Below, piece after piece: positions 12,292 to 39,700 of a stretch of DNA of 64,000 nt. Numbering within the stretch: the stretch's first letter is position 1; the number at the start of each line of letters is the position of its first letter. The notes under the pieces were generated by a model that was given only the letters and a program-made list of their open reading frames with translations, had not been told where the DNA came from and ran no database searches. The translations under genes were made by a program, and so were the position numbers. This DNA is from Astropecten irregularis (taxonomy: Eukaryota > Echinodermata > Asteroidea > Paxillosida > Astropectinidae), in assembly GCA_963971285.1 (NCBI GenBank), contig OZ020253.1:3472001-3536000 (forward strand), read 5' to 3'.

Positions 12292-12428
12292 CAAGTGAAC
12301 AAAGTAAAATTGACTGGAGCGGGATTCGAACCAGCGGCCTCCGGAATACCGTATCGGCGCTCTTACCAACAGAGCTACCTGGCCCTATGCTGGTGGTGTC
12401 TGTATTAGTCAATTATCTTTGTTCTTTT
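12292..12428 (-). mobile_element. SINE family A, tRNA part, downstream of NRDC
   Basis: GACTGGAGCGGGATTCGAAC to GAGCTACCTGGCCCTATGCT. It sits about 60 bp past the NRDC stop and may be in its 3' UTR. Confidence 0.85.
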
Positions 12429-12485: not shown

Positions 12486-12710
12486 TCAGTGGTCAATCTT
12501 TGTGACGGGATATACTGTCAGGCCAGCCTTAAATGTCCGAATTGAATCGATAACTGTCAAACTATCGCCCTGATCCAAGGGTAGGAACACGAGACCCATC
12601 TTGCTGGTGTCTGCTTCATCAAACTGATCACCTTTGCTGTCCACTGTTGTGACTGATGCTGTAGCCGTCGTGTTCAGATTATGCTTCTCAAGCTTACCCA
12701 TACCAACCAC
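12486..12710 (-). CDS. NRDC: NRDC last coding exon
   Basis: It follows acceptor TATTCCAG and encodes VVGMGKLEKH, a divergent low-conservation loop, then GLVFLPLDQGDSLTVID and a C-terminus ending VYPVTKIDH before TGA at 12488-12486. The nardilysin C-terminus has the same pattern (VVGYGK ... ITDIRAF ... LLPYHKIVK). A SINE lies about 60 bp downstream, probably in or beside the 3' UTR. I saw no clear AATAAA close by. Confidence 0.93.
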   Translation of the reverse strand: MVGMGKLEKHNLNTTATASVTTVDSKGDQFDEADTSKMGLVFLPLDQGDSLTVIDSIRTFKAGLTVYPVTKIDH

Positions 12711-15700
12711 CTGGAATAGTGAGCATACAAATAAAGCTATAGGATCAGATTCTGTTCAAATGGGGATCAAGATTCAAGTGTGAATGCAACTAGTGCTGGG
12801 CAAAATCAGGTAATGTCATATCCGGTTACTGAGTGCAATAAAAAATCAGGTTAACCTATGTAATCATGTGCGACATACGTGACATTTATGGATACGTCTT
12901 CTTTAATGTGATTGTCACTTTCGGAATGCTTTTCCGATGTTATTTTTAGATACATACAATGATTCAGTTTGTGAAAAGCGTGTTTCTACTTGACAAAATG
13001 GACAAAATAACTGACTGAAATTCTACAGTTTAAACTTTTTGGCAGTTGTTGAGCATGAGCCAAACATTGGTCTCTGCTATTTCTGTTCAGCATTTCGAAA
13101 GCGTGGTGTAACCATGAAAGATTCGGAGGGGGGCAAGATTATTTCGGCCATATTTCTGCTATATGAACAAAGCGTAAAAAGGTACATGAAACAACGTCTG
13201 TAAGGAAGTTTAAGACCTTCACTTCTGTTTAAGTACCAAATTCAGCCAAAACGCACATCTTTGCAAATCCTATGCTCCCTTAAAGGAGCTCTATGAAATT
13301 GGCCCCTAGTGCAAGCCTGACCAATTGCATGAAAACAAGTCCCTACAAATCACGAATAACATTAATGGAGTACAGTTTGTAAAGGTGTACATTTTATTCC
13401 ACACAATGTCCAAACAGCTAGTTTAAGATACAAACATTACACTGGTACCCAATCTGTGGGTTCCTATTTGTAATCCTTTTTTGCTGGTACTTCGTCGCCT
13501 TTAATGTTTAACTGCCACATACCTGAGTACTAAGTTTGCGGAACTTGACCCCACCTCTGATGTGGTCGGCTAGGAAGTCTCTCGTTTCCTGCAGTGATAT
13601 CGTCTGAAGAGCCTCAACCTGCAATTCAAAGTGAAATCGACATCAATATCAAGATATACATAAATGGCTTTATTTAAAGGTACTGTATAGGATTGGTAGC
13701 ATACCCAAACACAAATGTTCACAGATTTACGTATAACTTTAATACAGGATATGAAGATGGTGCTGGTAGAAATATACTGTTAAAATATTTCCGCCTGAAA
13801 TAGTGTATTTTTCCAGAAATTAGTCAAACAAAGACTGAAAACAGTTTTGATCTCGGGGTAAGATCAAAACCATTTTTTATGTTTTATAAGAAAAATTAAG
13901 TCGCTGTTTTCTCGTTAGTCAGATGTCGGATTGAGCTCCGATTTTCACAGGTTTATTATTTCAAGTCCACGCTGAATTAGACAAAGTGTAAGTGCTGTTC
14001 TGTGACCTTTACAAATCATGTATTATACCGTTAATAAGCCATTTTGCGAGTTAAATCTGAATAGTATCTGGTACACAGGTTTCTTTCATTGCACATAAAC
14101 ACCCCAGTTTGAATTTCCCAGACTAAAGACTCTGTTGCTATATCACATGATTCGGGGCAAGCTTTTGCTTGGTTACATAACAGACGTCTTGCACCAATGC
14201 ACTGTTCATAATGGATAAGAATGGCACAAAGGAACCAGTCCATTCCAGAGATGGGTATCACTATGCAAAATCTTGCCCTGGATCATTGTTATTTTTTATC
14301 TTCCGAAGATCAAAACATTTTTTGGTCATTGGCAAAAATATCAAGAAAGATACAGTAACAGTCATCTGTGAAATTCCCAGTCCCATACGGTGCCCACTTT
14401 TTGAGAAAACAGAGAAAAACGCCCACGTTATTTCTAAATCTTTTCACAGGATTTTTGATCTTTTTGTTTTGTAAGATCAAAATTATTTTTGGTCACTGGT
14501 TTTACTCTTTTCTGGATAAATACAGCATTTCAGGTAGACAAATTTTAACAATATGTTTCTAGCATCACCATCTTTATACCCTGTAAGTTATACGTAAATC
14601 TGTGAAGATTTCTATTTCAGTATGCTACCTAAAAGCAAAAACAACAAACCCCAGCTCAAATACTCACCTCACGTTTAAGTCTATCAAAAAGGTACGAGCG
14701 ATTCAGGACTTCATACCAGTTCCTATCAACCTCTTCTCCGAGATGGTTGTCCACGCACTGTTTCAAGTTGATCAGCGACTCCACGTTAGTCTTAAAGTCA
14801 TCCTCGGTGACGGTGGAGCTCATCTTCTGACAGAACGAGTCCAAGAATGAGTCTATCCTATCTTCAACATGAGATACACTAAAACAAAACAGAAATAAAA
14901 AAGAAACAAAATAGATAAAGGTGGGTTGCTGTAGCCTAGTGGTCTGGCATGTCGCACTTAAGATCTTGTGGTCAATCTACAGATTGTGGGTTCGAATCCA
15001 GCCATGGGCTAGTGGTGCTTGCATCCTTGGGCAAGACGCTTTGCCACATATTGCTCCTCTTCACCCAGGAGTAAATGGGTACCTGTGAGGGTAGAGATGG
15101 CTTTGTATGCTTGATTAGCCTTTGTGTGCTTTAAAGCAGCCGGGGCTGTATACTCCCCAGGGAGTTGAGATGGTTTCAGGAATGTAAACGCAGCCCAATG
15201 ACCAGGGATAAGACATCATTGATTGTGACATACACATTGAAAATTATAACACTGGAAATCCTAATACAAAAACCTTGAATATAAGTCAACAGCTGGCCGG
15301 CACCAATATCTTACCTATATTTGGTGGCCTGTGTTGCAACTGTAACTGAAAATCCAACGATGCCAAAACTGTTCCGACATGTCGGATAAACACTGTACCT
15401 GTACAAACAAACAAAAACAACTTTGATGAATGAAGTTTTATTTTAAAAATTCATATAAATTAAAGGAAAACGAAATGAGTTCCACTACGTACCGGACAAC
15501 ACTTTGACACCCTGTGTACAAACCCTAGAGGACTGACTAAACTGGTGCCCAACAGAGGACGCTTTTAAACAAAATAGCTCCTGCTGTATTCGTTGTAGGT
15601 AAAAAACACCCCGTAAAACTCACTTTCCAGATATGCTACCCCAGTTATACACAGCTGAGATTGAAGTTCATCATAACTTGTATCCAGTAAGTTCAACAAA

Positions 15701-18700
15701 GAAAAGTTGACTGGAGCGGGATTCGAACCAGCGACCCCCAGAACACTGCACCAACTGAGCTATAATTCTAAGGCACTATATTTAAAGGATGTCAAGTTTT
15801 TTTCAGTATTGTCTGTCAGATGAATTCATGCAACCAAGGCCCAATTTCATGGAATCCGTTAAGGACTATTTTTATTCTTATAGGCACTGCTACACGTAAA
15901 TTCTATTCCATGGAATCCATAAGCAAAACATTTGGCACCTAATCGGTTAGCGAAGAATTTCTAGGCTAAACCTTGGTTTATACTGCTAACACGCTGTCAT
16001 GTGCATTCTACGGAAAGTCCTTGCTATAAGCGTAGCGAAAAAGACAAATCTCCCGCAAAATGCGGGAGATAAGCGAGGAATTATGTAAGCGAGGAATTTT
16101 TGCTGTTACCATAATATGGTAACAGGTTTTTTGCTTACGATTAAGCTGTAAGCAAAAAAAATCTGCTTTAATAAGCGAGGAATTATATGAGCGAGGAATT
16201 TTTGCTAACGGTAACAAATTCAATGAAATTGGGCCCAATTCGCATGCCTTCTTTCAACAGAAGTAGAGAAGCTAAAGTAAAAGTGAAGACAAAACGAGTG
16301 CTTTTCATTTATGACTGAGCTTACCCAAGTTGCTCCTGGGTCCGTAAGACGTCAAAACACGGCTCCTCCATCATCATCTACACAAGAAATAGAACTAGAA
16401 GTCATTGAAAAGCGAGCAAAGAAAAATCATCTGGAGCGGGATTCAAACAGCCGACCTCCTGAATACCGTACAAGTACTCTACCAACTGAGCTATCCGACC
16501 CTATGTTGGAAGTGTCCCAAATAGTTAATCATCTTTGTTTGTTAGGAAGTCAGAAGCCATGAAAACACTCATATCCCAAGGATCATTTAAGATATGTGCA
16601 GCATTAGCAATGCTGCAACCTGAGAAATGGTACATGGGGGATCACTCAAAGAGGATGAGACTTTTAATCAATATAATCATCAAATAATTACAAGGGAAAC
16701 TGACTGAATTTTTAAGTCATTGAAAGGTGAACAAAGAAAAATTGACTGGAGTGGGATTCGAACCAGTAACACCCCAGAAGACTGTACCGGCACTCTTACC
16801 ATCTGAGCTACCCAGCCTTATGTTGGTGGTGTCCCTAATACAGTAGTCAATTATCTTTGTTCTTTTGGAGATCAGAAGCCATGAAACCACTCACATACCA
16901 CTATATCCCAAGGATCATTGAAGATACACGCAGCATTAACAATGCTGCAACCTGAGAAACAGTACATGGGGGATCACTCAAAGAGGATGCGGCTTTTTAC
17001 TCAATACAATCATCAAATAACCACAAGGTGAACTGACTTGAGTTTTTTGCACAAAACGATAATAATGCAAATTCTGCTTCTTTTTATAACTCAAGTCATT
17101 GAAAAGCGAACAAAGAAAAACTGACTAGAGTGGGATTCGAACCAGAGCCCATACAAATACTTACAACTAAAACATCAATGACGCTTAATTGTCGGACGGA
17201 TCCTGGACCGGACTGGTAGTAGTTGGTCACTACAGAGTTAGCATCCTGATCATTGTAACCTTTGACCTTACACACTTGATACCCAGTGGGCAGCTGAACG
17301 ACCCTCGTTTTGGGCATCTGTTCTTTGGGCAAGGGCGTACATTGCAATTTTGTACAGAGGGACTCGTCAAATCCGAGGGCTTCCTAGAAGTTTAAGAGGA
17401 CAAACAGAACAATCTCAAGAATGATACAACAGCAACAACATCTTCTAGATGAACAAATAAAAACATGTGTTAGTCTGATTACGAGTAAGGCCGTGTCCCA
17501 AATCTTTGGCTGCGGCTGCAAATTACACACGCACCTATGGTAGCCAGTAGCCAGTGACTGCAGCCATTTCCATGGACTTATTATTACAGATTACAGATTG
17601 CGGTCTGCTTGGAAATGCAACAGCAACAACATTTTCTAGATGAACTAATGGAAACATGCGTCAATCTAGTAAGCTAGGTTGTGTCACAAATCTCTGGCTG
17701 TGGCTGCAAATTACACACACACCTATGGCAGCCACTAGCCACTGACTGCAGCAATTTTCCTAGACTTGTGTGTTATTTGCAGTCGCAGCCAGAGATTTGG
17801 GACACGACCTCAGTTTCTCTGCAAAATGACTAAAGAGATGCAACAACTCACATTGCATGATTTGCAATGCAGTACCATTCGGACTTATGGCTCTCGGCAA
17901 ACAAACAAGTTGTATTATATAAAGTTTTATGTAAAGATTTTACGCAGCTTAAAACACAATGATTTCCTTCTTCCCAGGAAGCATCTATAGCAGTTTGCCT
18001 CATGGTGTGAAAATATTCATGATTACTTTGCTATTTCCATTGAAATACATTGAATGACGGGTACTGTCTGGAACAAGAGGTTCAATGAACATTAATTGTC
18101 CCATACAATTTGCTCATTGTGGTACAGTTACCCCCATTGATTTGCAAAATTCAGACAATATCCCGAATTCCGGGCAGATTGTAAAGTATGCACACAGCTT
18201 TGTTCAGAACTCACAGATTGTGGTCTTCTTGAAAATGCTGATCCATTCAAATGCAAATCAAATGTACCAAAAAAAACGTGAAATTTTGTGATACAATAAA
18301 TGTTCAATAAACCTCTTGTTCCAGACAGTACCCCCACTCAATGTTTTTCAATGGAAAAAACAAAGCAATCATGAATATTCTCATGCCATGAGACGAACTG
18401 CTATATAGCATCTATGGGCAAAAGGTGTAAAGAAAGATCCTGCTGTAAACACCCCCAAAGGCTAATCAAGCACACAAAACCATCTCTACCCTCACAGGTA
18501 TCCATTTACACCTGGGTGAAGAGGAGCAATATGTGACAAAGCGTCTTGCCAAAGGATGCATGACCACTAGCCCATGGCCGGTTTCGAACCCATAATCTGT
18601 AGATTGACCACAAGATCTTGAGTACGGCACGCCAGACCACTAGGCCACAGCACCCCACTCTTTGAGTACTTTGAGACGTTACCTTTGCAGTGAAGTTTCC

Positions 18701-21700
18701 CTGTACCAGTCCTTCAATGAACAGGATCTTCTTGAATCTTACTGCAAATTCAAGCACCTGGTCTCTGGTAACACTGTTGACTATACAACGCTTGTCAACA
18801 GGCGTCCATTTAACTTGCTGAAGGATTGATAACCTCACATCACTAGGGTAAACAATAACAACAACAACAACAACAACAATAACAAATTAAGAAAGATTTG
18901 AGGCTTTGCATGATGAAAAATTGGTATGTGGATTGGTTTGCGGAAACACCATGTAAGAATCGTTTAAACTTTTGCACTTCTATACCGTTCGCACTTCTCG
19001 TAAGGTCTCAATGACAATTTACATAATTTTATATAGCGCTTAAAGGAACTATCATACTTTGGTAAAGTTGATAGAACAGCTGCGGTCTGTTCATAATTCA
19101 ATTTGTCATGGAATAAAAACAAACCTGTGAAATTTTCAGCTCAATTGATCATTGGAAACAATAGAAAACTGTGAAAAACCGTTGTAATTGTTACGCAAAA
19201 TTGTAAGGTAATTGTAATTGTGAGATTTTGATCTCGGAGATCAAAACAGATTTTGGTATTTTGTTTTACTAATTTCTGGAAAAATACAGGCAGAAAAAAT
19301 TTTTAACAGTATGTTTTTACCATCTTCATCTTTATACACTGTAAGTTATACGTAAATCTGTGAACATGTCTGTTTTGGATTCCTACCAGAGTATATGATA
19401 CTACCATTAATACTGTGTTTCTTACATGTCTTAGCGCAAGAATCCATCAAAACACATGTTGAGTTTTATGCGAAATAGGCTCGCCCTTCACCGACGTAGA
19501 CGAGCACTGCATTGAAACTATATACTACTCACTCAAAGATTATTAAACTGTCATTGAAAACTGAATAAAGACAAATTGACTGGAATAGGATTCCAACCAA
19601 TGACCTCCGGAATATCACACCGGCGCTCAACATACCAATTGAGCTATCCAGCCCTATGTTGGTGGTGTCCCTAATAGTCAATTATCTTTGTTCGTTTGGC
19701 AGTCAGAAGCCATGAAACCACTCACATACCGCTATATCCCAAAGATCATTTAAGATACGTGCAGCATAAGCAATGCTGCAACCTGAGAAACAGTACATGG
19801 GGGATCACTCCAAGAGGATGCAGACTTTTTAATCAATAAAATCATCAAAAATGAAAACTGGATTCAATTATTAAAGTCAGTGAAAAGTGAACAAACTGAA
19901 CAATTGACTAGAGTGGGATTCGAACCAGCCATCACTGATAAGAAATTGAAGTTGAAAGTGTTCCTGGTCAAATGACATTAAGCAAATGAACTTACTTGTT
20001 GAGTTTCCCTGGTTTAATGACGTGATTGTAGTAAGACTTGATCATGGATTCCTTGACTGCATCAAACAATTCCTGAGTCACTGAGAAGTCTGTAATGTAG
20101 TCCACTAGTGTGTCAAACAACAGCTGTTGAAAAAGAGAGGATGGATTCCAGTTACAGCTAAACTTTAACGACAGCTGAAGATATACCACAAACAGCTCCC
20201 ACAAACAGCCCCAGCAGTAGTCTTGGTTCACGACTATGTTATTACTTGAACATACTCATAAGTCCTAAGATCGATCCTAAGATAAGATGTGTTTGGTGAA
20301 GTTGGTTTCGTGATGCGTCATATCCAAGATCGATCTTACAGATCTGCCTAAGATAAGATGAGCCACTGGTCAACTTACAGGAAGCTTATGACTGAAGCCG
20401 TTCATCTTCATGACAAGACCCGTTTCCTCTGTCTTCAGACTGTACTCCAACTGGGCGGTGTCTGCTTCATAACCGATCTCCGACAAATTGTGCTCTAAGA
20501 TGCTCGCTAAGAAGTCAAAGAGGACAAGATTCTCCGGGGACGTGTAGACCAGGGGTGTCATCAGATGAAAGATGAGGTAACCTGGAAGATACAAGAGACA
20601 GAGAGATGTCATCAGATGAAAGATGAGGTAACCTGGAAGATACAAGAGACAGAGAGATGTCATCACATGAAAGATGAGGTAACCTGGAAGATACAAGAGA
20701 CAGAGAGATGTCATCAGATGAAAGATGAGGTAACCTGGAATACACAAGAGACAGAGTGATGTCATCAGATGAAAGATGAGGTAACCTGGAAGATACAAGA
20801 GACAGAGAGATGTCATCAGATGAAAGATGAGGTAACCTGGAATACACAAGAGACAGAGTGATGTCATCAGATGAAAGATGAGGTAACCTGGAAGATACAA
20901 GAGACAGAGAGATGTCATCAGATGAAAGATGATGTAACCTGGAAGATACAAGAGACAGAGAGATGTCATCAGATGAAAGATGTGGTAACCTGGAAGATAC
21001 AAGAGACAGAGAGATGTCATCAGATGAAAGATGTGGTAACCTGGAAGATACAAGAGACAGAGAGATGTCATCAGATGAAAGATGAGGTAACCTAGAAGAT
21101 ACAAGAGACATAGAGATGTCATCAGATGAAAGATGAGGTAACCTGGAAGATACAAGAGACAGAGAGATGTCATCAGATGAAAGATGAGGTAACCTAGAAG
21201 ATACAAGAGACAGAGAGATGTCATCAGATGAAAGATGAGGTAACCTGGAAGATACAAGAGACAGAGAGATGTCATCAGATGAAAGATGTGGTAACCTGGA
21301 AGATACAAGAGACAGAGAGATGTCATCAGATGAAAGATGAGGTAACCTGGAAGATACAAGAGACAGAGAGATGTCATCAGATGAAAGATGTGGTAACCTG
21401 GAAGATACAAGAGACAGAGAGATGTCATCAGATGAAAGATGAGGTAACCTGGAAGATACAAGAGACAGAGAGATGTCATCAGATGAAAGATGTGGTAACC
21501 TGGAAGATACAAGAGACAGAGAGATGTCATCAGATGAAAGATGAGGTAACCTGGAAGATACAAGAGACAGAGAGATGTCATCAGATGAAAGATGTGGTAA
21601 CCTGGAAGATACAAGAGACAGAGAGATGTCATCAGATGAAAGATGAGGTAACCTGGAAGATACAAGAGACAGAGAGATGTCATCAGATGAAAGATGAGGT

Positions 21701-24700
21701 AACCTGGAAGATACAAGAGACAGAGAGATGTCATCAGATGAAAGATGAGGTAACCTGGAAGATACAAGAGACAGAGAGATGTCATCAGATGAAAGATGAG
21801 ATAACCTGGAAGATACAAGAGACAGATAGATGTCATCAGATGAAAGATGAGGTAACCTGGAAGATACATGAGACAGAGAGATGTAATCACATGAAAGATG
21901 AGGTAACCTGAAAGATACATGAGACAGAGAGATGTCATCAGATGAAAGATGAGGTAACCTGGAAGATACAAGAGACAGAGAGATGACATCAGATGAAAGA
22001 TGAGGTAACCTGGAAGATACAAGAAACAGAGAGATGACATCAGATGAAAGATGAGGTAACCTGAAAGATACATGAGACAGAGAGATGTCATCAGATGAAA
22101 GATGAGGTAACCTGGAAGATACATGAGACAGAGAGATGTCATCACATGAAAGATGAGGTAACCTGGAAGATACAAGAGACAGAGAGATGTCATCAGATGA
22201 AAGATGAGGTAACCTGGAAGATACATGAGACAGAGAGATGTCATCACATGAAAGATGAGGTAACCTGGAAGATACATGAGACAGAGAGATGTCATCACAT
22301 GAAAGATGAGGTAACCTGGAAGATACAAGAGACAGAGAGATGACATCAGATGAAAGATGAGGTAACCTGGAAGATACATGAGACAGAGAGATGTCATCAC
22401 ATGAAAGATGAGGTAACCTGAAAGATACATGAGACAGAGAGATGTAATCACATGAAAGATGAGGTAACCTGAAAGATACAAGAGACAGATAGATGTCATC
22501 AGATGAAAGATGAGGTAACCTGGAAGATACAAGAGACAGAGAGATGTCATCAGATGAAAGATGAGGTAACCTGGAAGATACAAGAGACAGAGAGATGTCA
22601 TCAGATGAAAGATGAGGTAACCTGGAAGATACATGAGACAGAGAGATGTCATCACATGAAAGATGAGGTAACCTGAAAGATACATGAGACAGAGAGATGT
22701 CATCAGATGAAAGATGAGGTAACCTGGAAGATACAAGAGACAGAGAGATGACATCAGATGAAAGATGAGGTAACCTGGAAGATACAAGAGACAGAGAGAT
22801 GACATCAGATGAAAGATGAGGTAACCTGAAAGATACATGAGACAGAGAGATGTCATCAGATGAAAGATGAGGTAACCTGGAAGATACAAGAGACAGAGAG
22901 ATGACATCAGATGAAAGATGAGGTAACCTGGAAGATACATGAGACAGAGAGATGACATCAGATGAAAGATGAGGTAACCTGGAAGATACAAGAGACAGAG
23001 AGATGACATCAGATGAAAGATGAGGTAACCTGGAAGATACAAGAGACAGAGAGATGTCATCACATGAAAGATGAGGTAACCTGGAAGACACAAGAGTCAA
23101 ACTTACCTCGTGGGGAGTTAAATTTGGAATCTCGTTTATACCATAGTCTGCTCTGCTCTCTATCTAAGATGCATTCTGGGTAATCACTGTCCGATACATC
23201 AGAATTCTTGAGGTCAAAATCGGTTGCTGGAATTGAAAACAAAAACAAAAATTAATCTTAAATGCTTCTATTGAGAGCATGGTGAGCATTTTGAGGTCAG
23301 AGTTCTTTTTTTTTTCTCCAAAAGTGCTTTCATGAACTTTTCCTTCCTGAATAACTCAATATAGTATAGTATAGTTATGGGGTGGTGTCAGTTCATTTTG
23401 TACACCGCCAATCATCTTTTATTGAAATCTGGGAAGCTGGAAAGCTAATCATGAGCAAAAGACCGACGGGGAAATCCAGATGTTGTCCATGCCGAATATA
23501 CTTCTAACTCCGTGTTCCTTTCAGAAATAAATCGGCCACATACCGAGCTGGAGTTGTAGTGCACTTAGACCAAAAAACACCACCGCTTTTTCTTTTTTAA
23601 TCAAAAGAGGGCGCCATTCAAAAACTTGTGTTTGGATTACTGTATAGATTAGTGCATTTTGATTTATAGTCAGATTTTCTTACCAATGAATTCATTCGGC
23701 CCTGGTATATGAAGTTCCGAATTTAACTCCAAATCTGTAAACAAAATACAGTAAATGATATAGTGAGTCCACATGTACAAATTATATGACACCAAAAACA
23801 CAACATCAGATCATTGACTTAGCCCTGCTTAACTTAACAATTTGCTGAGGACACGACGATGGTACGACCCACCAATGGTTCTTCACCAGGAGTTTGCCCG
23901 CCGACGAACAAAGCTGAGACTTCTCGGGAGCTACGAACTTTACCGCACAGCCTGCCCGTGACTTGGGCGACTATGTCTCGGGGACCGGTCGTGAGGACAC
24001 AAAAACAGTACGACCACGGAACTTGGGATGACGCACCGATGAGTTTATATCGGCCAACGTCCCTTATTCATCGGGGACTTCACTTTCGTGTGTGCCTACA
24101 CCGACTACAGGGGACAAGCGTTGTTGGCTGAACTTTTTCCAAGGGACTAAGGTAGTTCGAATTTATTGGTTGCTCGCCCCACTGTAACTTTTCGTAACCT
24201 CTTGTTTTAAGTGATTGTATTTTTGAGATGCTCCTTAAATATTTTTCAACACTATTATTTCAACGTATATTCTTGCTTGTGAATTGTGCTTACGTTTGAC
24301 TTTTGTTGTCCCCTTATTTCTGAGGGCGTGGGTTTACTTTAACCTTTAGCGTTTTGGGGAATTGGGTCACAACAACATGACCATTGGCTGATAATGAGGT
24401 TGGAACATGTAGGGCTGACAAGAAACCCGGGCTGAAGGGGTTAACAGCTCCATGAAATTGGTCCCAGATAGGTTGGGTCAACAACAAGAACAAGTGCAGA
24501 AATGGCAGCTCAAACAGCTAACAAACCCATATCCGTCTTCTGACTAGTTCACTTACCCCTAATGGCTTCTTTCCATTCCAAAGGCACGTCTTCCACACTG
24601 TAACCCGTCTCGTACCACGCCTCCTTCCGATCACACTGTCCCTCAAAGTTTTTGGACAGCAGCATAAAATTTGCCGTGTCTACTTGAAGGCAATTTGTGC

Positions 24701-27700
24701 AGAAGGCAATGGCCTGTCATATGAGAATAATAGTACACAACAAAACATGAATTAAAGGGCATATACATGTACAACATTGGTAACAATCCAAAACAGAAAT
24801 CTTCACAGATTTACCTATAACTTACAAGGTATAAAGATGGTTATGGTAGAAACATACTGTGAAAATGTTTTTGCCTGAAATTCTGTATTTATCCAGAGAA
24901 GAGTAAAACCAATGGCCAAAACATTTTTGATCCGGGAAAGATACAAAATGAGACAGCTATTCCCAAACAATTTGACGTAACAATTGCTATAATTTTTCGT
25001 CATTTCCAATGATCAATTGAGATGAAAATTTCACAGGTTTGTTTTTATTGCATGACAAATCGAATTATGAGCAATCGGCACAGTGCCTGTACGGTATTCC
25101 GGAGGTCGCTAGTTCGAATCCCCCTCCAGTCAATTTGTTTTTGTTCACCTTTCAATAATTTTGCATTTGAATAGATCAGCATTTTCGAGCAGACTGCAAT
25201 CTGAGAGTTCTGAAAACACAGCTGCGTGCATAGAATACAGTCCGCCTGGAATTTGGGGTATTGTGCAGAGGTATTCAACCACTGCATGCCTGCATAGTTT
25301 ACACCGAGTTCCCTGCTCATATAGCCCAGCCAGATGACCTCCGTTTGACCGATAGCTGATAATGAGGCCGGTTAAACAAAAAAACGGGCTGAAGGTGTTA
25401 AGCTTGGCAAAGGGTAGACGCTATTTTTATCAGAACCCCTTGTAAGTTTGAATTTGTTGAGAGAATAATAGCCCTTACTTGTTGATCGTAGTCTTTCTCA
25501 ATCAGAGGTCCAGTAAGATACTCCTCCGTAGGATACAGTTGCATATTCTCAGCTACAGCCTCCACATACTCAATGGGTTCAGTCTGATGCAGAAAGGTTT
25601 GAATTTTGAAACAAATAAATTAAAGACAATGAGAACACACACTAAAAGTAGTATCATATTTTGGTAGCATAGCGAAACAGAAATCTTCACAGATTTACCT
25701 ATAACTTACAAGGTATAAAGATGGTAATGGTAGAAACATACTATTAAAATGTGTCTGCCTGAAATGCTGTATATATCAAGAAAAGAGTAAAAACCAAAAA
25801 CAGTTTTGATCTCAGGGTGAGATCAAAACTCCTGCGAAAAGACTTGAAAATACTGTGAGCGTTTTTTTTTTCTTCAATGTTTTCATATAAAGTAGACACT
25901 GTATCAACTAGAAATTTCACAAATGAATGTTACTGTATCTTTCTTGATATTGTTGCTGATTAATCTACATATCTTTGGTAAAAACCAAAGTATGAAGTTA
26001 CCTTTAAGCAATAATTAACCTCACTATGAAAAAGGCCTAAAGTAACTTGGAAAAAGAGGATCATTTGAAGAAAGTTAGTCAAATACATGCAAAACTTCAA
26101 TTCTCCAGACTAAAGACACTGTTGCTATATCACATGATTCAGGGCAAGCTTTTGCTTAGTTACATAACAGACGTCTTGCACCAATGCACTGTTCATAATG
26201 GATAAGAATGGCACAAAGGAACCAGTCCATTCCAGAGATGGGTATTGCTATGCAAAAGCTTGCCCCAAATCAATTGTCATAGCAACAGTCTTTAGTCTAG
26301 GAAAGAAAGAAGTGTATGTGCCATATACTATTCAGATTTAGCACGCAAATGGCTTATTTCGGATATGTTTTCCTTCGAAGCACCGCATACCTCTTCTTTG
26401 AATCTGAAGTCATTATCGTCAATCGTCTTGATCTCCTGAAATATTCTGTAAGACAACAAAATCACATACAGAATAATAGAGAGAGCCCACTTCATTGGAC
26501 AAGAGGGAGCTTTATAAAAATGGCAGCCGAACACCCCCGGCAGCTGAAAATTGCTATACAATACAACGGTTACAACGAACAACTTTTGTGTATCCAGTGG
26601 TGTTAATAGCGCTCCGCACTTGCGCTAAAGATAGCACCCGATCTCAGACAAACATTGCAACCATGCAAACGTGTGTGCACGTGCGCGTGCATGTACACTA
26701 CGTGTGTGAGACAATGTTTGTCTGACATCTGGGGATTTTGTGACGTAATTAGTGCGGAGCACTATTATATCGCCGTTCAAATGTATTCTGCTATTGAGCA
26801 AGTACATGAAAGGAATTTGAAGGAATTTCTTACCTCTCTTGTGGTCCTATTGTCTGCAGCATTTTGATGTATTGAAATACAATACTCAGCACCTGTAACA
26901 TATAACAATGAACGACAATTCCCAAATATTTATCTTGAATTTCTTAATGTTAATCACGCAGGGATGTGAGTGGCCACACAAACAAATCTGAAAACATCAA
27001 GGAAAAAGCTGAAATTTAACAGGATACGGCTTTTTAATTAATATAATAACCAAATAACCACAAGGGAATCTGACTGAATGAAATAGCCGTATCCTCTTTG
27101 AGTGATCCCCCATATACCGTTCCCAGGTTGCAGCATTGCTGCGTGTATCGGTGAAATGATCCTTGGTGTATGGCGGTGTGTGCATGGTTTCATGGCTTCT
27201 GACTGCCAAACGAACAAAGATAATTGACTATTGGGGTTACCACCAACATAGGGCTGGATGGCTCAGATGTTAGAGCGCCTGTGCGGTATTCACAGGTCGC
27301 CAGTTCGAATCCCGCTCCAGTAAATTTTACTTTTAAAAACAACTTTACTAACAAGAAGTAAAACACTCTTACAACGCACCTCTTTCTGTTGCTGGAAGCC
27401 CTGTTCAGTCAATGTAATGGATATTACATATGTGGCCTGTGTATCGTTGTGTTCAAAACCAGTCTCAGAATTACCACTGAAGAGACTCAGTGCAAGTGCC
27501 CTGCAAAATGCCACATATACGAAAAATTGACAAATATGTGGAAACTGGTCTTTTCATAACTTTCAATCTTTTCATAACGACCGGTATTAATTATCAATGT
27601 GGTTATTGAAGTCCTACTTGCTAATTAAAGGCACTATCAAACTTTTGGAGCATACCGTAACAAAAAAAAGGGTATACAGGGTATAACAGGGTATAAAGAT

Positions 27701-30700
27701 GGTGATGGAAGAAACATACTGTAAAAACTTTGTCCCGTGACAATGTTGCGTGTAAGGCTGCAGTTTGTAACCGATTACCCGAGTAACCGACCGTCCGCTC
27801 GGGTACCCGGGTACATTTTTGCGGTTAGGTTAATCGAAGTGTATTTTTTTTATGGGCCTTTTCTTTTTAAAACATAAGTGCTTCTGGAGTTCACCGAGAA
27901 AAAATAGCAAGATAAGGTCGTTGATCACAAAACCACGATCTTTTGAAGATTGACAAGCCGGCTAATACAAAGCAAAAGCCAGACATTTTCCAATCTCCCC
28001 TTCTTCCGGACGTGGACATGGCCTTTGTGGACACATCCTTTGTGTAGCAAACAGTTTCCATTCACCAGACGGCATCATATTACAGCCCAAAACATCAAAG
28101 GATTATCAGCGGAGCCGACAGCTATTCAACTTCATTCTTGAGAGGCTGACTAATTTTTTTTTAAGTACTCGGGATTTTGTTTTTCAGGGGATCGTGATTT
28201 TCTGCCGGGGTGTTTTTTAGAGGTTATTTTTTTAAAGGATTGGTATCTTTTCAAGATTGCAAAATAAAGGCAGGGTTTTGTTTCTTTCGGGAGATTGGGC
28301 ATTTTCTTGGGTACCAGCCTTTTATTTCTCCAGAGGATTGGGATAGTTCGGGGAATCAGGATTTCTTCTAAGTTGGTAATGTTTTTTTTAGGAGTTTCTA
28401 GACACTTTGTATTTCTGTGGAGGTAAGAACTTTAAAATGGGTATGGTAAATTTTTATTATCATTATTATTTTTTGTTGGGGGGGAGGGGTTGTGATTTTT
28501 TTTCCCCAGGGATCTGTATTTTTTCAGGGATTGGTATTTTTAAGGGATTGAATTTACACGATGACACTTTTCTTGGGGATGAAGATTTATGAAGGAGCTG
28601 GCAAGGATTTTTTCAGTAGATCGTGATCATCGTGATTTTGTCAAGGGATCTTTTTTTCAGGGGATTGCCGATTTGTTTCGGCTTTCATTTTTTAAGTACA
28701 TTGGTGGTTTTTTCCCCACTCCGGAGATAGGCTCTTGATTCTCCAGGGACTGTCAACTCAAGTTGGAACAGAGCCAATTGGGCTGGGCGTGTGAAATAAA
28801 CACATGAAACCACACAGTCACACTATGAACAGTGATTGGTTTGATCTGTGCATGGGCTGTCAATGATGTTGGCCGGGAGGCCAATCAGCTTGGAGCAAGG
28901 GCGGGGTGAACGTTGCCACCGGCAAGATAAAAAAAACTTCTTTTAGCAGTTATCTGGAAAGTACTTTGAAAGGGCTGAATGGGGATGGCAAATGTGGTTG
29001 GACGGACGGAATAAACACGTGTCAAGCAGAGCACCTTTGCATCATGTCATTGGCTAGTTTTTGCATGGGCTGTCAATGATGTAGGCCGGAGACCAATAAT
29101 GTGGTTTAACAAATGGGGTTGGACGGACGGAATAAGCACGTGTCAAGCAGAGCACCTTTGCATCGTGTCATTGGCTAGTTTTTGCATGGGCTGTCAATGA
29201 TGTAGGCCGGAGACCTTCACGGCGCTTGTTCTCAGTGAATTTCAGAAGCAGAAAAAAATCAGTACCTACGACCGTAGAGCTACAAACAGACTGCGTTGTG
29301 TCATTGTGTGGAGGCGTTTTTTCAGGATCCGTTATTGATGTAGGGCCAACCTTTTTGTTTGTTCTACCGCCTTATAATTCACGATGTCTGACTGATTTCT
29401 GCCATTCATTGTCCTGACAAAAGATGTTATCAGCCGACTTCCTCAAAGATCGAAACTGACTATTTCTTTGTTTTTCTTTGTTTTCTTTGTTGTACGGGTA
29501 ATCGTAACCGTAACCGAAAAACCAGACGGGTAATCGGTTACAAAATTATCCGCAAACTTACAGCCCTAGTTGCGTGTATTTTTTACTCCGCACAAATCAA
29601 TGGGCGTGTTTACATCTATGCAAGAAAGTAGTGCGACTTGTTGCGTGAGTTTTTTAAATGAAATTGAAAGTGATTTTTTTCGCGCGACAAAAAAAGTTGT
29701 AAACGTATTTCCCTATATCCTCGCGCGCGCGCCAGCTGTATTGATTGGTTGGGAAAGATGGACAAGAAAATATAATGAATTGTACAAAGTAATGCCGCTA
29801 GCCATGCTTGAGTGATCACGTGCAAAGTGCACACTCTAGTTTTTTATTTAACTCTATGTATGTATAAACTCACCTCTTCTTTAACAATGCTAGGATACTT
29901 CCATGTCCCTCGTGGCCAATCAACCAAGATAGGTAATTCAGAGGTTTACACCTATGGAGAAAAAGAACCCAACAAAATTCATTACAATTACAATAATGTG
30001 CCACTCAGACACACTTTATGATCTTATGAAGTGACTCATCAGACAAAGAACACACATAACATCATTTGTATCGCTGCAGGGATGTGAGTCACCACACACA
30101 ACAGAAATCTGAAAACATAAAGGAAAAACCTGAAATTTAACATTTCTTATACTTTTGTCGTACAGAGCTGACATACAAAAAAGCTGCAATTCTGAGATAA
30201 AATCTGAACCAAAAAAGTTGCCCAATGAAGGCTAGCAGTTCCAGCTGCCAAAACGTCGCTACCAGCAACACGACATTGCCTGACTTTGATCACATTTTCT
30301 TCTTATCTGTATCTACCGTGATGAATAACCCTTCCCTTTGTAATGCCATTTGTATCCTTGTGAAGACTTAGCTTTTTCTTGTGAATGTATTTCTGGTGCC
30401 TTGTGGAGACCAAGCACAATAGATTGAATATGTCTCCATAGGGAAATTCTAAAGGTGTAGGTCTATACATGTAAGTCTCCACAAGGTTTTCATGAAACAG
30501 ATATTTGGAATGAACTCAAAAAGGAGGAATTTTCAAGATATGCTCATCTGCCGTAAGAGAAGTATTTTGCATAAGGGACGTTTCAACTGAAATTGCTAGA
30601 CATTTCAAGTCAGAAAAGTGCTTCTGGTTCAAATGGAAGCGATTTCAATTCTGCTCTTCGGAGAGTGTTCATTAGTACAGTATAACTTGAAGACACACAT

Positions 30701-33700
30701 TGGTACCAAATTTACATAAGGTATACACTGATAGTGAATATACATGAAGTACTCACCTATAGTGTTGTCTCTGGTCTGGTAGGGACCAGCTTATCTCCAG
30801 TATATGAGCCTTCTGCACAGGAACAACTGCATCAAATATCAATCAAGCAAATAAGATGAACTAAATTCTAAACATCGAAATAACAGATAAGATGGTAGCC
30901 TGATGAAGGCTAGCAGTTCCAGCAGCTGAAATGTCACTACCAGCAACACAACATAAATAATACAAATTGAGAATATAAATTATCACGACATCTTCGGGGA
31001 AGAAAATTGATATACTTCAATAAAGGAGAAAACAATTTGATAAAATTCTATCTAATTTCGTTGGCTAGCTTGCAGATATTTTAGCAAATAAAAGCTGTTT
31101 GCCAGATCAAGTTTAAATTTTACACTTTGGGTTTTGTCAAAACAATGCAGATTCATGGGTAAAAACATCAAGAAAGATACAGTAACAGTCATCTGTGAAA
31201 ATTTCAGTCCCATACAGTGCCCACCTTTTGAGAAAACAGTGAAAAACGCCCAAGGTATTTCTAAAATATGTCCACAGAATGTTTAATGTTCTGAAGATCA
31301 AAATTGTTTTTGGTCAAGTGGTTTTACACTTTTCTGGATTAATACAGCATTTCAGGCAGAAATTGTAATGGTATGATTCTACCATCACCATCTTTATACC
31401 CTGTAAGTTATAGGTAAATCTGTGAAGATCTCAGTTTCGGTATGCTACCAAAGTACGATAGCATATTTTAAAGGGTTTGAAATAAACTTTACCTTTATAC
31501 AACTTATGAAACTTCTCGGCTGGAAATGGCATCCCACACTGTATAGAGCTTGGTCTTGGTAGGCCACTGCAAATTCAAAGATGAAAAACAGATTAAAAAA
31601 AACCCAAAGAAATTCTTTCTGGAAGTTGGGAAACAACGTGGTGAAATAAATGAGGTACAGAAAGCGGGATTCAAACCAGCGCCAACCCCGGGAGTAACGT
31701 ACCCACACTCTTACCAACTGAGCTATTCATCTCTAGAATTGAAATGGCATGCCCTCCTAACTCAAAGCAATTTGCTGCAGTTTATTACTTAATATTAAGT
31801 CATAGAAAACTGAACGAAGAAAAATCGACTGGAATGTGATTTGAACCAGCGACCGACCCCAGGAATACTGTGCCAGCTTTCTTACCAACTGAGCTATCCA
31901 GCCGTATGTTGGTGGTGTCCCTAAAAGTCAGTTATCTTTGTTCGTTTGGCAGTCAGAAGCCATGGAACCACTCAAATACCGCTATATCCCAAGGATCATT
32001 GAAGATACGTGCAACATTAGCAATGCTGCAATCTGAGAAATGGTGGGATCACTCAATAATAAACTCACTTATTTGGAATATCGGAGAATGATTGCTTCAC
32101 CAATTCTTCAAGTGTATCCAGTGACTCTGAAAGAGAACAAACAGTTAACAGAGATTAATATCTGGAATAGAAATAATTACAGGTTATACCATACTTTGGT
32201 AAAGTTGATAGAGCAGCTGCAGTCTGTTCATAATTTGATTTGTCATGGAATAAAAACAAAACCTGTGAAATTTTCAGCTCAATTGATCATTGGTAACAGT
32301 AGAAAACAGCGAAAAACCGTTGCAATTGTTACGTGAAATTGTGAGGTAATTGTAATTGTGAGGTTTTGATCTTCGAGATCAAAACTGTTTTCAGTCTTAT
32401 TTTTTTACTAACTTCTGGATAACTACAGCATTTCAGGCGGACAAATTTTAATGGTATGTTTGTACCAGGTTCATCGTTTTACCCTGAAAGTTATAAGTAA
32501 ATCTGTGAACATTTCTGATTGGGTTTCCTACAAAAGTTATGATAGAACCCTTCAAAACAAATTTATCTTTTTGACTTATTACAAGAATTGAAAAAAACAA
32601 AAACAGCAAAAAGTACTTGGTATAAATTGAATCTGGAAACTCTTTGCATTTTGGGAGGTTGGGTATATATTTTGGTTGATAAGCACTTAATTACAAATAA
32701 ACGTCACTACAACAAACACACTGGTATGCACAAAAATTTTTCTTTATAGTGGTGGTTCATTATAGTAAACAATGTTCAGCCCACACAATGTACATAAAAA
32801 TTGGGAGTCAAGGATGATGTTCAGTATAGCCAAATATTCGGTAAAACAGTGTTCGTTATAGCTGTGTTCAATATGTACAAATTTCATCTTCCATATCTTA
32901 CTCACCTCGAGACTGAACGGCTAGTGTCATGTACTGGGCTGAGTATATTCTCTTCCTGAACTCGATTAATCTCTGCTGCACATTGATATTTCTCTTCAAT
33001 GGTTCAATCTTCAGAGTCGATGAATTACCTGATTTATAAGAATCAAAATAAATACCATGGGTTCAGTGTCGAAAATTTTAGAGTCGAGCACCAACAGACT
33101 AACAGTTACTTAATACTTGATGCTACTGAACCAAAGTAACATCCAATACCATAATAATAATAATAACCGAGGATTGGAACTTAGGTAGACATTCCCATAG
33201 GGTCGTGCACAAAACTTGACGTACCTATTTCTAAACATCCTCCAAAACCAATGAACTTGACATTGACATATGTTCATATTGAGAGCATTCTCTGCCTTAT
33301 AATAAAATTTATATTATAAAAAATATGTCTTTAAAAGGTAGCTGGTACCTTAGGTAGACATGAAAATGGCTCCCTAATTCCCAATGTCTACTATTTGTAC
33401 AAATATAGATTTATATATGGCGCACTTATCTGGCAACCGATCAAGGCTCCTACATTATTATTATCCCTGGTCATTAGGGTACATTAAAGGTACACGCCGG
33501 CCTCGTTGCGCTTTTTGGGCGCTTTTTGGCGCCAATGCATGCCTTTATCATGACTGGAAAGGTCTTCCAAAAGTAGAATAGAACATTCCACACAAATAAA
33601 CGGTAAAATTGAGCCGTTTTCATGAAAAATACGAAAAACCGTAAGTCACGTGGGTTTTCTGAGTCAAAATTTTGACTCAGAAAACCCACGTGATCATGTG

Positions 33701-36700
33701 TTAGTTTCACTTCCAGTCGTTTAGAAGCTTTTTTTACTATACAAAATTTAGTATAACTTTTTGTTTAATCGCTGGTTTTCTTTTAACTAAACCTGAACTG
33801 TTCGACCTGGGTATTTCCTTTTTAAAATTAAGAATTTCCAACGCTATAAAGCAACATTTAAATGCCAAATTTAGAATTTATAAAACACCGGTAACTGCGG
33901 GTGCCTACCACCTCTGCAGACACAGTCCGTGGGGTTTTTCGACGCATTCAGCCCGAGGCACGGGCCCGTGATAACCACCAGTGCGGTCCACGCTCCCCGT
34001 ACGTGTAGCATTTTTGATGGGAGACCGTGCATTGAGTCACTCACCCGGTCTCCGTTGCATTGGGGGGGGGGGGAATTTCAAGCCGCGGAGCAAGAAAGCC
34101 TCGAGATAATTTCTTTTATACATGAAAATCATTTATGCCATCATATCAAAACCTTTTTGTGTGATTCTCAAAATTATATTGTGTGTATAGGCCTATGTGG
34201 AAATCGTTTTGGTCCCTCGAAAATTGTTTCATCGATCATGCCCTCAAAATCCTTTGTGTCAACTCACAAACATTACGTCAACTCGCAGTCGTTGCGTCAA
34301 CTTGCAAACGTTGCGTCAACTCGCAAACATTACGTCAACTCGCAAACATTATGTCAACTCGCAAACATTGCGTCAACTCGAAAACATTACGTCAACTCGC
34401 AAACATTGCGTCAACTCGCAAACATTGCATCAACTCGCAAACATTACGTCAACTTGCAAACATTGCATCATCTCGCAAACATTACGTCAACTTGCAAACA
34501 TTACGTCAACTCGCAAACGTTGCATCAACACACAAACATTACGTCAACTCGCAAACATTACGTCAACTCGCAAACATTGCATCAACTCACAAACATTTTG
34601 TGAATAATTCTGAAAAGTCTTATGTTTTCAACAGACAGACGGATTCGCCTAATTCAGTAATTGTTTATGTTTTGCCTATGATTTTTCCATCGTGTACGGC
34701 TTGAACATACGTGAATCGCATTCCTGGAATTCTCATACGGCAGCTGCAACATTTAGTCACAGCTATGAGCACCAGTCTAAAACCATTGGTGTGCCACATC
34801 CTTCTAACACTTGTTACGGCTGGAAATGTGTATACACTAACCTTTGACCTTATTTTGATTTCCGTTAATTAACCCTAATTAAACGACTTATTTCTGATTT
34901 TTTTTTCACGAAAACCTTCATCCAGTGTTCTAGAAATATTGTGTTATACTCTGCACTCTTAATTTTTTTGGACTTTGAAGCCGGCGTGTACCTTTAACAT
35001 TCCTGCAACCATCTCAACTCCCTGGGGAGTATACAGCACCGGCTGCTGTAAAGCGCACAAAGGCTAATCAAGCACACAAAGCCATTTCTACCCTCACAGG
35101 TTTCCATTTACACCTGGGTGAAGAGGAGCAATATGCGACAAAGCATCTTGCCCAAAGATGCAAGCGCCACTTACCCATGGCTGGATTTGAACCCATGATC
35201 TGTAGATTGACCACGAGACCTTGAGTACGACACGCCAGACCACTAGGCCACAGCATCCAGCAACATCATCACAAACTGAACTCTTATTCTTAATTGATAT
35301 ACCTTACCCCACATAAACTTGCCCATGGGATGCCCTTCTTTACATAGAGAACCCATCAACTGCTGCTTACGATGATAATCGCTTGGTAAACTCATCTGAA
35401 ATTCTGCGAGAAGAAAAATAGTTATCTTAAAACTGAATGAAAACTTTTTATGTTTGAAATTTCATCTCGACTTATAAGAGGGAACCAGCACGAGATAACT
35501 TGCGCAACTGGCCTCTTTCAGAATCTGTTGCGAGATTTTGAACATAAAACCATTGTTATCGTGTGACGCACAAATTTGCCCATGGTTTTTTCCTGAAATT
35601 ACACTCTGGTGCCCTCTATTGTCTGTCTATAGGTATTTTATGTCTGTGCTACTAACAGACTCAACATACCACTATCTACTGCCTCTAGTTCACGGTCTGT
35701 GCTGCTGGCTTTCAAGAGAGGAGCTGTAAAGAACTGAGCAAAGCGCATCAATCCCTCACTGAAATGCGTAACCTCTCTAATAGAAGACTCAACATACCAC
35801 TATCTACAGCCTCTAGCTCACGGTCTGTGCTGCTGGCTTTCAAGAGAGGAGCTGTAAAGAACTGAGCAAAGCGCATCAATCCCTCATTGAAATGCGTAAC
35901 CTCTCTAATAGAAGACTCAACATACCACTATCTACAGCCTCTAGCTCACGGTCTGTGCTGCTGGCCTTCAAGAGAGGAGCTGTAAAGAACTGAGCAAAGC
36001 GCATCAATCCCTCACTGAAATGCGTAACCTCTCTAATAGAAGACTCAACATACCACTATCTACAGCCTCCAGCTCACGGTCTGTGCTGCTGGCTTTCAAG
36101 AGAGGAGCTGTAAAGAACTGAGCAAAGCGCATCAATCCCTCACTGAAATGCGTAACCTCTCTAATAGAAGACTCAACATACCACTATCTACAGCCTCTAG
36201 TTCACGGTCTGTGCTGCTGGCTTTCAACAGAGGAGCTGTAAAGAACTGAGCAAAGTGCATCAATCCCTCACTGAAATGTGTAACCTCTCTAATAGAAGAC
36301 TCAACATACCACTATCTACTGCCTCCAGCTCACGGTCTGTGCTGCTGGCTTTCAAGAGAGGAGCTGTAAAGAACTGAGCAAAGTGCATCAATCCCTCACT
36401 GAAATGTGTAACCTCTCTAATAACAGACTCAACATACCACTATCTACTGCCTCTAGCTCACGGTCTGTGCTGCTGTCCTTCAAGAGAAGAGCTGTAAAGA
36501 ACTGAGCAAAGCGCATCAATCCCTCACTGAAATGCGTAACCTCTCTAATAGAAGACTCAACATACCACTATCTACTGCCTCCAGCTCACGGTCTGTGCTG
36601 CTGGCTTTCAAGAGAGGAGCTGTAAAGAACTGAGCAAAGCGCATCAATCCCTCATTGAAATGCGTAACCTCTCTAATAGAAGACTCAACATACCACTATC

Positions 36701-39700
36701 TACAGCCTCTAGTTCACGGTCTGGGCTGCTGGCTTTCAAGAGAGGAGCTGTAAAGAACTGAGCAAAGCGCATCAATCCCTCACTGAAATGCGTAACCTCT
36801 CTAATAGAAGACTCAACATACCACTATCTACAGCCTCCAGCTCACGGTCTGTGCTGCTGGCTTTCAAGAGAGGAGCTGTAAAGAACTGAGCAAAGCGCAT
36901 CAATCCCTCACTGAAATGTGTAACCTCTCTAATAGAAGACTCAACATACCACTATCTACAGCCTCCAGCTCACGGTCTGTGCTGCTGGCTTTCAAGAGAG
37001 GAGCTGTAAAGAACTGAGCAAAGTGCATCAATCCCTCACTGAAATGCGTAACCTCTCTAATAGAAGACTCAACATACCACTATCTACTGCCTCCAGCTCT
37101 CTGTCTGTGCTGCTGGCTTTCAACAGAGGAGCTGTAAAGAACTGAGCAAAGCGCATCAATCCCTCATTGAAATGCTTCTGATGAATCTCAAAGATGAAGG
37201 TCGTCTATGATAAGAAAAACAATCAAGTCAATTTAAATATATGAACGCACAACCAGAGGAAGTACACACAGGCGGCCATTTTAGTGAGCTAAATTTACTG
37301 TTTTCATTTGGTGTGTGATTCTGGCCGAAAAAATCATAATAATAGGCCTTAATAAATGACTGTTACTGTATCTTCCTTGACATTTTTGAATCTGAATTTC
37401 TTTGACAAAAACCAAAGTGTTATATTACCTTTAATTCTGACGAAAAAGAACAGAAAAATAAAAGAATTCTAATAATTGAAGGATAAACCCTTAACTTACC
37501 CGTTCACAGTCAGTTGAGGCATTATCGGAACCACCATGTGCCCTGATGAAAGCATCAAAGGAATTCTCATCGGGGTACTTCTCACTGCCCATAAAAACCA
37601 CTGAAAAATTATAAACATTCAAGAAAAAGAAGTTTAAGGACAAACACACCTTCCACTTCCAAAGCATATTTGTAATTAAGTGTAATATCAAGTCTAGAAT
37701 TTAACGGAGGCCATGGTCTTCATTGCCCTGGTTCTTGGCCTTGGTGCCCCCTGCAAATGTTTCCATAGACATTATGATTTTCCAATGGAAGTGTCCCTTG
37801 TAATGGAAAAGTGGCCTTGCCCCTTTCAGAACCAAATTCAAGGCCTTGTACCGGTATCTAGTACTGCTGCAATGTATGATGTACAAGTAGATGGATTGTC
37901 TACGTTTTCTATAATATGTACATTGAAAAGTGAACAAAGAAAAACTGCTTTGAGCGTGATTCGAACCAGCGACCTCCGGGAATACCGTACCAAAGCTCTT
38001 GCAAAATGAGCTATCCAGCCCTATGTTGGTGGTGTCCCTAATAGTCAATTATCGTTGTTCGTTTGGCAGTCAGAAGCCATGAAACCACTCACATATTGAT
38101 ATATCCAAAGGATCATTTAAGAAATGACGGAAACTAATCTATGGCAAAATGTTGTGGTATGTACTGAATATTCATGTTGTCATTGTGTGCACTAACTTTG
38201 CATTGTGAAAAAAATGCTACACAAGTTTTATGTAATAACCATCTGCTATGCAAACAATATTCTGCATAGTTTGCTCTGCAAATGTTAGACTGGAAATTAT
38301 TCTCTGTATTTCACGACAAAAATGGGACTCACTGTGTTCTAAAAAGTGAGCTAATCCGGGTATATCGTCAGGCTCACTGAAACTCCCAACACCAATGCAT
38401 AATGCTGCAGCTGCCTACAAAATGAAATAAAAATGTGTTATTAACTTCTAATATCATAAATGCTTGGAGTTAGGAGGGCCTGACATTTCGATCCTAGCAG
38501 GATCTTTTTCAAAACCTAAAGGTTTATTACCGTAAAGTGCCATGTATACGGCGCACCCATGTATACGGCGCACCCCAACTTTTGACATCAGCCGGCAGAA
38601 AAAAAAAAAATCGGCCGTGAACGACCCAAAAAATTAGAAAACTGCATCGCTAATTTTTCTCAGCTCATTTGTGATTTGTATTTCAATTGAGAATTCGAGA
38701 AAAATAAAAACAATGAATTACCCAATCCAACTCACAACTTTCAGGGATGTTTTGCCCGAGTTTGAAACAACCCGAAGTGCGTCAGTGTCACGCAACGCTG
38801 CGCCACGCCACGCCGCAGAAAGCAGTACGTACGGAGGCCTACATGATGTAGGCCTACTATCGTTAAGCGTGCGGCGCGGCCTACATCGTGTCTTGCACAC
38901 GTGCAAACAGTATTCGATCTCCACCATAGTAGACTTGCTCAGCAGTCTACATATTCAACGGACAATTGTACATTCCGTTCCGTATTTTTTGTGTGAGTGG
39001 ACAATTTGTTGCAAGCGCTGCGTGTCCAACTATCATGATCATAACGTTCGACTCGATCCAAAGCTATCGGCATTTTCCTCGCACGAAATACTTGCACGTG
39101 GTCGGGCCGACGAATGCTGGCAACTCGTACCAGCCATACGCCGAGTCGCCGACCAACTCGCACGCCGACCCGATCGTACGAGTTGGTAATTAGCGCACGG
39201 TGAGTTGGTCGGCGTACGGGTTTAGCGGCGTACGAGTTGGCTCAATGCACCGCAAATTGTTCATCCTACGTCCGCAATAGCGCGAGCGAATTTTGTGATT
39301 GGCTAGACGATCTGCGCGCGCTTTACAAATTGTCATCTTTAATACATTAGAACAAATCAAAATGGCGGTTCACGTTGCAGCGAAACGCTGTCGCGAACTT
39401 GACGTTTTTACCCATGAGGATAAGGATATTTCCCAATGGAAACGTGACTATTGTTGATTAAAATAATGACTCCAGACACGGGTTTGATAACTTATTGAAC
39501 AATCACGACATTCTTAAATGAAATATGTACGTCCGACCATAGTCCAACGATCGGACCGTCACGGCCCGGAGATTGCATTTACTGTAATGTAAATGCACAT
39601 GTCCACTCGCCCGTCGTCGCGTGCACATTTACGGCGCTCCAACCGTGTTTTCGCACGCTATTTTCGGTGTCTCTAGTCCATACCCTTATCGATTTTTGCA

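Follow-up and report, generated by a model that had tools for sequence, protein, structure and literature searches.

Tandem duplications of two exon-intron boundaries in a predicted NRDC gene of the sea star Astropecten irregularis

We analyzed a window of 64,000 nucleotides (nt) from Astropecten irregularis (GenBank assembly GCA_963971285.1, contig OZ020253.1, positions 3,472,001 to 3,536,000), in which a predicted nardilysin (NRDC) gene carries two minisatellites whose units straddle exon-intron boundaries, one at the acceptor side of intron 18 (array 1) and the other at the donor side of intron 5 (array 2). The exon model is a transcript-independent prediction based on similarity to the NRDC protein of Patiria miniata and on GT-AG rules; its coordinates are given in Table 1. 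The predicted protein is 77.6% identical to that of P. miniata, 79.5% to that of Acanthaster planci (974 aligned positions), 73.9% to that of Asterias amurensis, 57% to that of the sea urchin Diadema antillarum and 53% to those of two lancelets. Among the best 120 of 1869 proteins matched by a partial NRDC query, the top three were those of Patiria, Acanthaster and Asterias. An earlier interpretation, made by a model that saw only the letters of this DNA and hereafter called the sequence-only reading, had named the gene NRDC and the repeat-filled intron its eighteenth, and both assignments are upheld by the 27-exon model and its similarity to sea-star NRDC.

Table 1. Positions within the 64,000-nt window of the predicted NRDC gene and of the exons, introns and repeat arrays discussed; a slash marks an exon-intron boundary.
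Feature	Position	Strand	Description
Predicted NRDC gene	12486..43162	-	27 exons; coding sequence of 3255 nt including the stop; 1084 amino acids; 0 internal stops
Exon 5	37078..37204	-	127 nt; donor side copied in array 2
Array 2, in intron 5 (37077..35404)	35669..37077	-	G/GTATGTTG donors in 12 identical copies, each exactly 128 nt from the next (11 spacings)
Exon 18	23107..23226	-	terminates ...CCACGAG, phase 1
Intron 18 (2525 nt)	20582..23106	-	26-nt leader, then 49 × 51 nt
Leader of intron 18	23081..23106	-	donor GTAAGTTTGA plus 16-nt partial unit with one mismatch
Unit 49 of array 1, adjoining exon 19	20582..20632	-	candidate branch motifs, pyrimidine tract, then CAG
Exon 19	20379..20581	-	203 nt; first 26 nt equal the exon-derived half of the array-1 unit

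Array 1 makes up nearly all of intron 18. Tandem Repeats Finder places it at 20556-23096 with a period of 51, 49.8 copies, 96% matches and a score of 4676, and the division of the intron into leader and units had been worked out by the sequence-only reading correctly to the base. A unit is made up of 26 nt copied from the start of exon 19 and 25 nt from the end of the intron; over those 26 nt the unit consensus is identical to exon 19, in agreement with the earlier estimate of about 26. As had likewise been claimed, the gene offers 50 near-identical acceptors with every AG kept: all 50 read AG/GT, 48 of them as CAG and 2 as TAG, at 51-nt spacing and with first exon bases at 23080, 23029 and so on to 20632 and 20581, and a single AG is present in every one of the 49 units. 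Joining exon 19 at the acceptor directly before 20581 gives a protein that matches sea-star NRDC. At the opposite end of the intron, only the first 10 nt of the leader (GTAAGTTTGA) are unlike the unit; scored with a leave-one-out matrix of the gene's own sites, this donor reaches 13.3, the top value among the 26 predicted donors. The frame of exon 19 is open through the whole array (open reading frame 20370-23096, 908 amino acids), and its consensus peptide is the one that the sequence-only reading had reported. A second reading frame is likewise open across the array (20515-23163).

Since just those 10 nt of leader differ from the unit, the branch point of intron 18 should sit in a repeat copy, presumably within duplicated exon sequence. 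Unit 49 contains three candidate branch motifs, CTCAT (-43), TTCAT (-36) and CTGAT (-31), all in the exon-derived half, as identified by a crude search for yTnAy that finds no motif in 8 of the 26 NRDC introns. CTGAT is kept in 40 of the 49 units and reads GTGAT in the other 9. Variation in the array is sparse and ordered: 15 of the 51 unit columns are variable and 57 of 2499 cells carry a variant, making 17 unit types that occur in alternating runs, with identical units in 15 of 47 pairs two apart versus 6 of 48 neighbor pairs. This order suggests growth by local duplication.

Array 2 was absent from the list drawn up by the sequence-only reading. Its unit combines the first 31 nt of the intron with the last 97 nt of exon 5, and at 128 nt it is not divisible by 3. 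Translation that runs on beyond the first donor encounters a stop ahead of the second, and use of any later donor leads to a stop. In the exon-derived part, four of the ten change types show the state of exon 5 itself, suggesting either that exon and array have exchanged sequence or that ancestral states were retained.

Copies of a boundary lie in introns at 2 of the 52 NRDC exon boundaries, those of arrays 1 and 2 alone; at the other 50 boundaries, no duplication was found at E 0.01. Of the gene's five longer arrays, two abut an exon boundary, a weak excess over random placement (P = 0.043 for at least 2). Arrangements of this sort have been described before, and the statement of the sequence-only reading that it knew of no counterpart turned out to be wrong. 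In lancelets, minisatellite-like tandem duplications of exon-intron boundaries, termed mirages, are presented for Adh3 and the globin genes BflGb6 and BflGb9 (PMC3087553), to which TnC and PGBD5 were later added (PMC3902484). Both NRDC arrays resemble mirages as characterized there in that the unit spans the splice junction, the repeats lie in the intron, the authentic site adjoins the exon body, and the splice signals are intact in many copies, here the AG in 50 of 50 and the GT in 12 of 12. Mirages, too, are described on the acceptor side (BflGb6) and on the donor side (BflGb9), and the NRDC gene has one array of each kind. The NRDC arrays thus belong to a kind already known. A lancelet source for the window itself, suggested by mirages being lancelet features, was rejected because sea-star proteins match the NRDC product much more closely. 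What differs is the host, a sea star and not a lancelet; the number of copies, 50 acceptors and 12 donors, in contrast to the 3 and 6 units given for two BflGb6 haplotypes; the presence of both forms in one gene; and an intron 18 that is nearly nothing but array. The repeats in lancelet Adh3 are put at 10-72 bp, and reverse transcription PCR is said to suggest that regular splicing is undisturbed (PMC3087553), as is also said of mirages in PMC3902484. Splicing and length variation have been addressed for lancelet mirages in these accounts.

We favor, at a probability of a little over three in four, the explanation that the NRDC gene contains two tolerated minisatellites of the mirage type, in each of which the exon-touching copy is mostly spliced and the others are removed as intron. 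Intron 18 would have been taken over by a minisatellite straddling the intron 18/exon 19 boundary, and intron 5 by a second with units crossing from exon 5 into the intron; both would have expanded through slippage or unequal exchange. Although the array-1 unit would form a complete 3' splice-site module, the spliceosome would mostly use the copy adjoining the exon body, presumably because exons 19 and 5 are recognized across the exon with the closest acceptor-donor pair preferred, and the remaining boundary copies would leave with the intron. In favor of this explanation, the authentic splice sites sit at the exon-touching ends of arrays with exact 51-nt and 128-nt spacing, and the gene is intact over 27 exons when these end copies are used. 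Given this intactness and the stop that follows every later donor of array 2, the boundary copies are probably mostly ignored. The choice of end copies is also the one expected from the rule set out in PMC9225289, by which the sites nearest across the exon are preferred when flanking introns exceed about 200-250 nt; for short introns, according to the description there of Reed and Maniatis (1986), the sites nearest across the intron are preferred. Exon 19 is flanked by introns of 2525 nt and 255 nt and exon 5 by introns of 295 nt and 1674 nt, and the exon-centered rule selects the correct copy in both arrays. The neutral-looking changes and chance-level AG invariance of array 1 (given below), the local duplication pattern of its units, the undisturbed splicing stated for lancelet mirages and the weak excess of boundary-touching arrays also speak for this explanation.

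Several observations weigh against this explanation. The proximity rule is a bias, holding for about 60% of 5' sites compared at matched strength as quoted in PMC9225289, and the classical intron-centered rule described in the same source favors the opposite copies. Moreover, intron 19 (255 nt) barely exceeds the quoted 200-250 nt threshold. Some use of the nonadjoining copies is quite possible, since the exon rule is a preference and intron 19 lies near the threshold. Splicing to one of the earliest acceptors in array 1 would leave an intron of 26 to 230 nt, shorter than any predicted in the gene (minimum 255 nt). With a matrix of the gene's other acceptors, the array-1 acceptors score 10.8-14.7 versus 2.3-13.6 for the gene's own. 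The upstream acceptors are thus predicted to be individually strong, and no other point weighs more heavily against a purely passive view; by these scores, local sequence does not mark the last array-1 copy as the correct acceptor. In array 2, the exon-derived part has five synonymous and five nonsynonymous changes (one-sided P = 0.039, post hoc), a ratio above expectation and not predicted by pure neutrality, for which sequence exchange with exon 5 may be one cause. Additionally, a search of a protein database with the product of exons 16-22 returned, among entries of near-query lengths, 15 proteins, the best 58% identical and none from A. irregularis, which in a database of proteins compared at such lengths does not prove that transcripts are absent.

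One alternative is that a substantial fraction of transcripts is spliced to upstream acceptors, inserting n × 17 hydrophobic residues into the middle domain and producing a protein length polymorphism that depends on copy number. All 50 acceptors match or beat most real ones, the unit equals 17 codons, and the frame is open through every copy. Neither the open frame nor the retention of every AG points to selection, however, because both are expected by chance. With variable columns placed at random, invariance of the AG is expected at P = 0.49 and of AGGT at P = 0.24, while a frame that is open in one 51-nt unit will be open in nearly every copy, and shuffling that kept the unit's composition left at least two frames open in 70% of 20,000 trials. 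The hint of function that the sequence-only reading had drawn from these two features is therefore weak; it had also held that a passive repeat would conserve the AG no further than the rest of the unit, and no AG conservation beyond chance is seen in array 1. Read in the frame of exon 19, the changes in array 1 look neutral, with 12 nonsynonymous, 3 synonymous and 0 stop versus an expected 10.8, 3.6 and 0.6, and zero stops among 15 change types has P = 0.55. In array 1, neither the AGs nor the 17-residue frame showed a sign of selection, and the coding constraint of a protein variable number tandem repeat was not detected either, in tests whose power is low with 15 kinds of change in all. Divisibility by 3 is a one-in-three coincidence that the 128-nt unit of array 2 does not share, no such insert is found in the sea-star NRDC proteins examined (P0001-P0003), and the insert would interrupt a conserved part of the Peptidase_M16_M domain. 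We consider appreciable use of the upstream acceptors unlikely. Among the three options that the sequence-only reading had offered, a neutral variable number tandem repeat tolerated by splicing is the best supported, and the functional reading is not supported.

A more elaborate possibility, which we regard as quite improbable, is that the length of the array acts as a splicing switch while exchange between array and exon steers a coding segment and the intron's own branch point. With many units the intron would be long, exon 19 would be defined across the exon, and the exon-touching acceptor would win; with about 5 units or fewer, an intron near or under 250 nt would pass to recognition across the intron, and in such short alleles the upstream acceptors would add n × 17 residues. 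The array would meanwhile swap sequence with the exon start from which it arose. Were this true, a minisatellite would direct how a coding segment evolves, along with its own branch point.

It is also very doubtful that intron 18 was itself born from tandem duplication of AGGT, with no intron before the array. Such a route has been proposed for lancelet globins (PMC3087553), just 10 nt of the intron are unlike the unit, and an AG terminates exon 18 while a GT opens exon 19. Neither the donor GTAAGTTTGA nor the pyrimidine-rich tract of 25 nt comes from the exon, however, and the intron end therefore pre-existed formation of the unit.

The sequence-only reading had further pointed to a resemblance between the AG/GT sites and zero-length recursive splice sites, by which intron 18 would be removed stepwise. 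The resemblance is weak. A GT does follow the AG directly in 50 of 50 copies, as an acceptor lies beside a GT in ratchet points as these are described, and in the NRDC gene as a whole 25% of GTs score at least 1 and 16% at least 2 as donors, so that the value of 1.5 for CAG/GTTACC is still in roughly the best quarter. With a range of -0.3 to 1.8, though, these sites fall below all 26 predicted donors (3.2-13.3), and the array-1 acceptors do not directly abut a competent donor of the kind that recursive splicing uses. Unlike in ratchet points, the GT is a weak donor and part of the coding sequence, being merely the start of exon 19, and the intron is only 2.5 kb long. We find stepwise removal hardly credible. 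The last alternative, an assembly artifact in which the real array is much shorter or its copies are collapsed or expanded, is likewise most improbable, for although 96% unit identity hampers assembly and one mirage was wrongly assembled according to PMC3087553, the 17 unit types stand in structured order and the gene has a second, independent boundary array; the copy number of array 1 is that of the assembly, for one haplotype.

Taken as tolerated boundary duplications, the two arrays suggest that minisatellites of this type are not confined to lancelets. New in the present case are the echinoderm host, the copy number of 50, the occurrence of both polarities within a single gene, and the candidate branch points in duplicated exon sequence, so that exon sequence supplies candidate branch points of an intron. 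The same transcript would contain 50 near-identical acceptors, whose use preserves the frame, and 12 identical donors, whose use destroys it. Because position is nearly the sole variable among the copies, the rule of splice-site choice could be read from a natural series, which offers a test of intron-centered versus exon-centered selection. The duplicated sites of Reed and Maniatis (1986), as described in PMC9225289, address the same question of which of several equal sites is used; that work and PMC9225289 concern constructed or natural pairs of sites, whereas NRDC has 50 and 12 natural copies. In searches of the open-license literature, with subscription papers mostly outside it, the papers that name mirage-type repeats are all on lancelets, one human title aside, and no echinoderm case was found. 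That title, from Nucleic Acids Res in 1995, reportedly concerns a minisatellite with multiple splice donor sites in the human interferon-induced gene 6-16 (IFI6/G1P3); unlike array 1 it is about donors, and the title mentions no acceptor-side copies.

Repeated blocks also occur in NRDC protein models of other animals. Self-repeats are present in 5 of 135 models, namely those of two lancelets (P0009 and P0012) and three fish (P0017, P0024 and P0040), and in the fish examples inspected they are long two-copy blocks. The Branchiostoma floridae model has a doubled block that starts like exon 20 of the A. irregularis gene (LLFETIVDY...), and the Branchiostoma lanceolatum model has KLSCAPVP five times in a region matching exon 22; the repeated peptides lie at about residues 622-663 of P0009 and 765-925 of P0012. 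It is possible, as a lead only, that the lancelet repeats are boundary duplications. Since three fish models have repeated blocks as well, such repeats are not specific to lancelets.

The window as a whole is rich in minisatellites, with 52 overlapping Tandem Repeats Finder rows. Intron 1 of NRDC contains two 16-bp arrays (41901-42086 and 42723-42892) whose consensus units are mutually reverse-complementary, and two further, large minisatellites lie 3' of the gene (2638-4134 and 5977-7716; 20 bp × 75 and 35 bp × 49). At 59571-59789, a 39-bp unit is repeated 5.6 times, each full copy carrying CCTAGCAG, and no exon boundary was identified there. Matches to tRNA families were found at 11667-11739 (+), 12311-12384 (-) and 19577-19653 (-), of which ARAGORN calls the first alone; they are possibly tRNA-derived short repeats.

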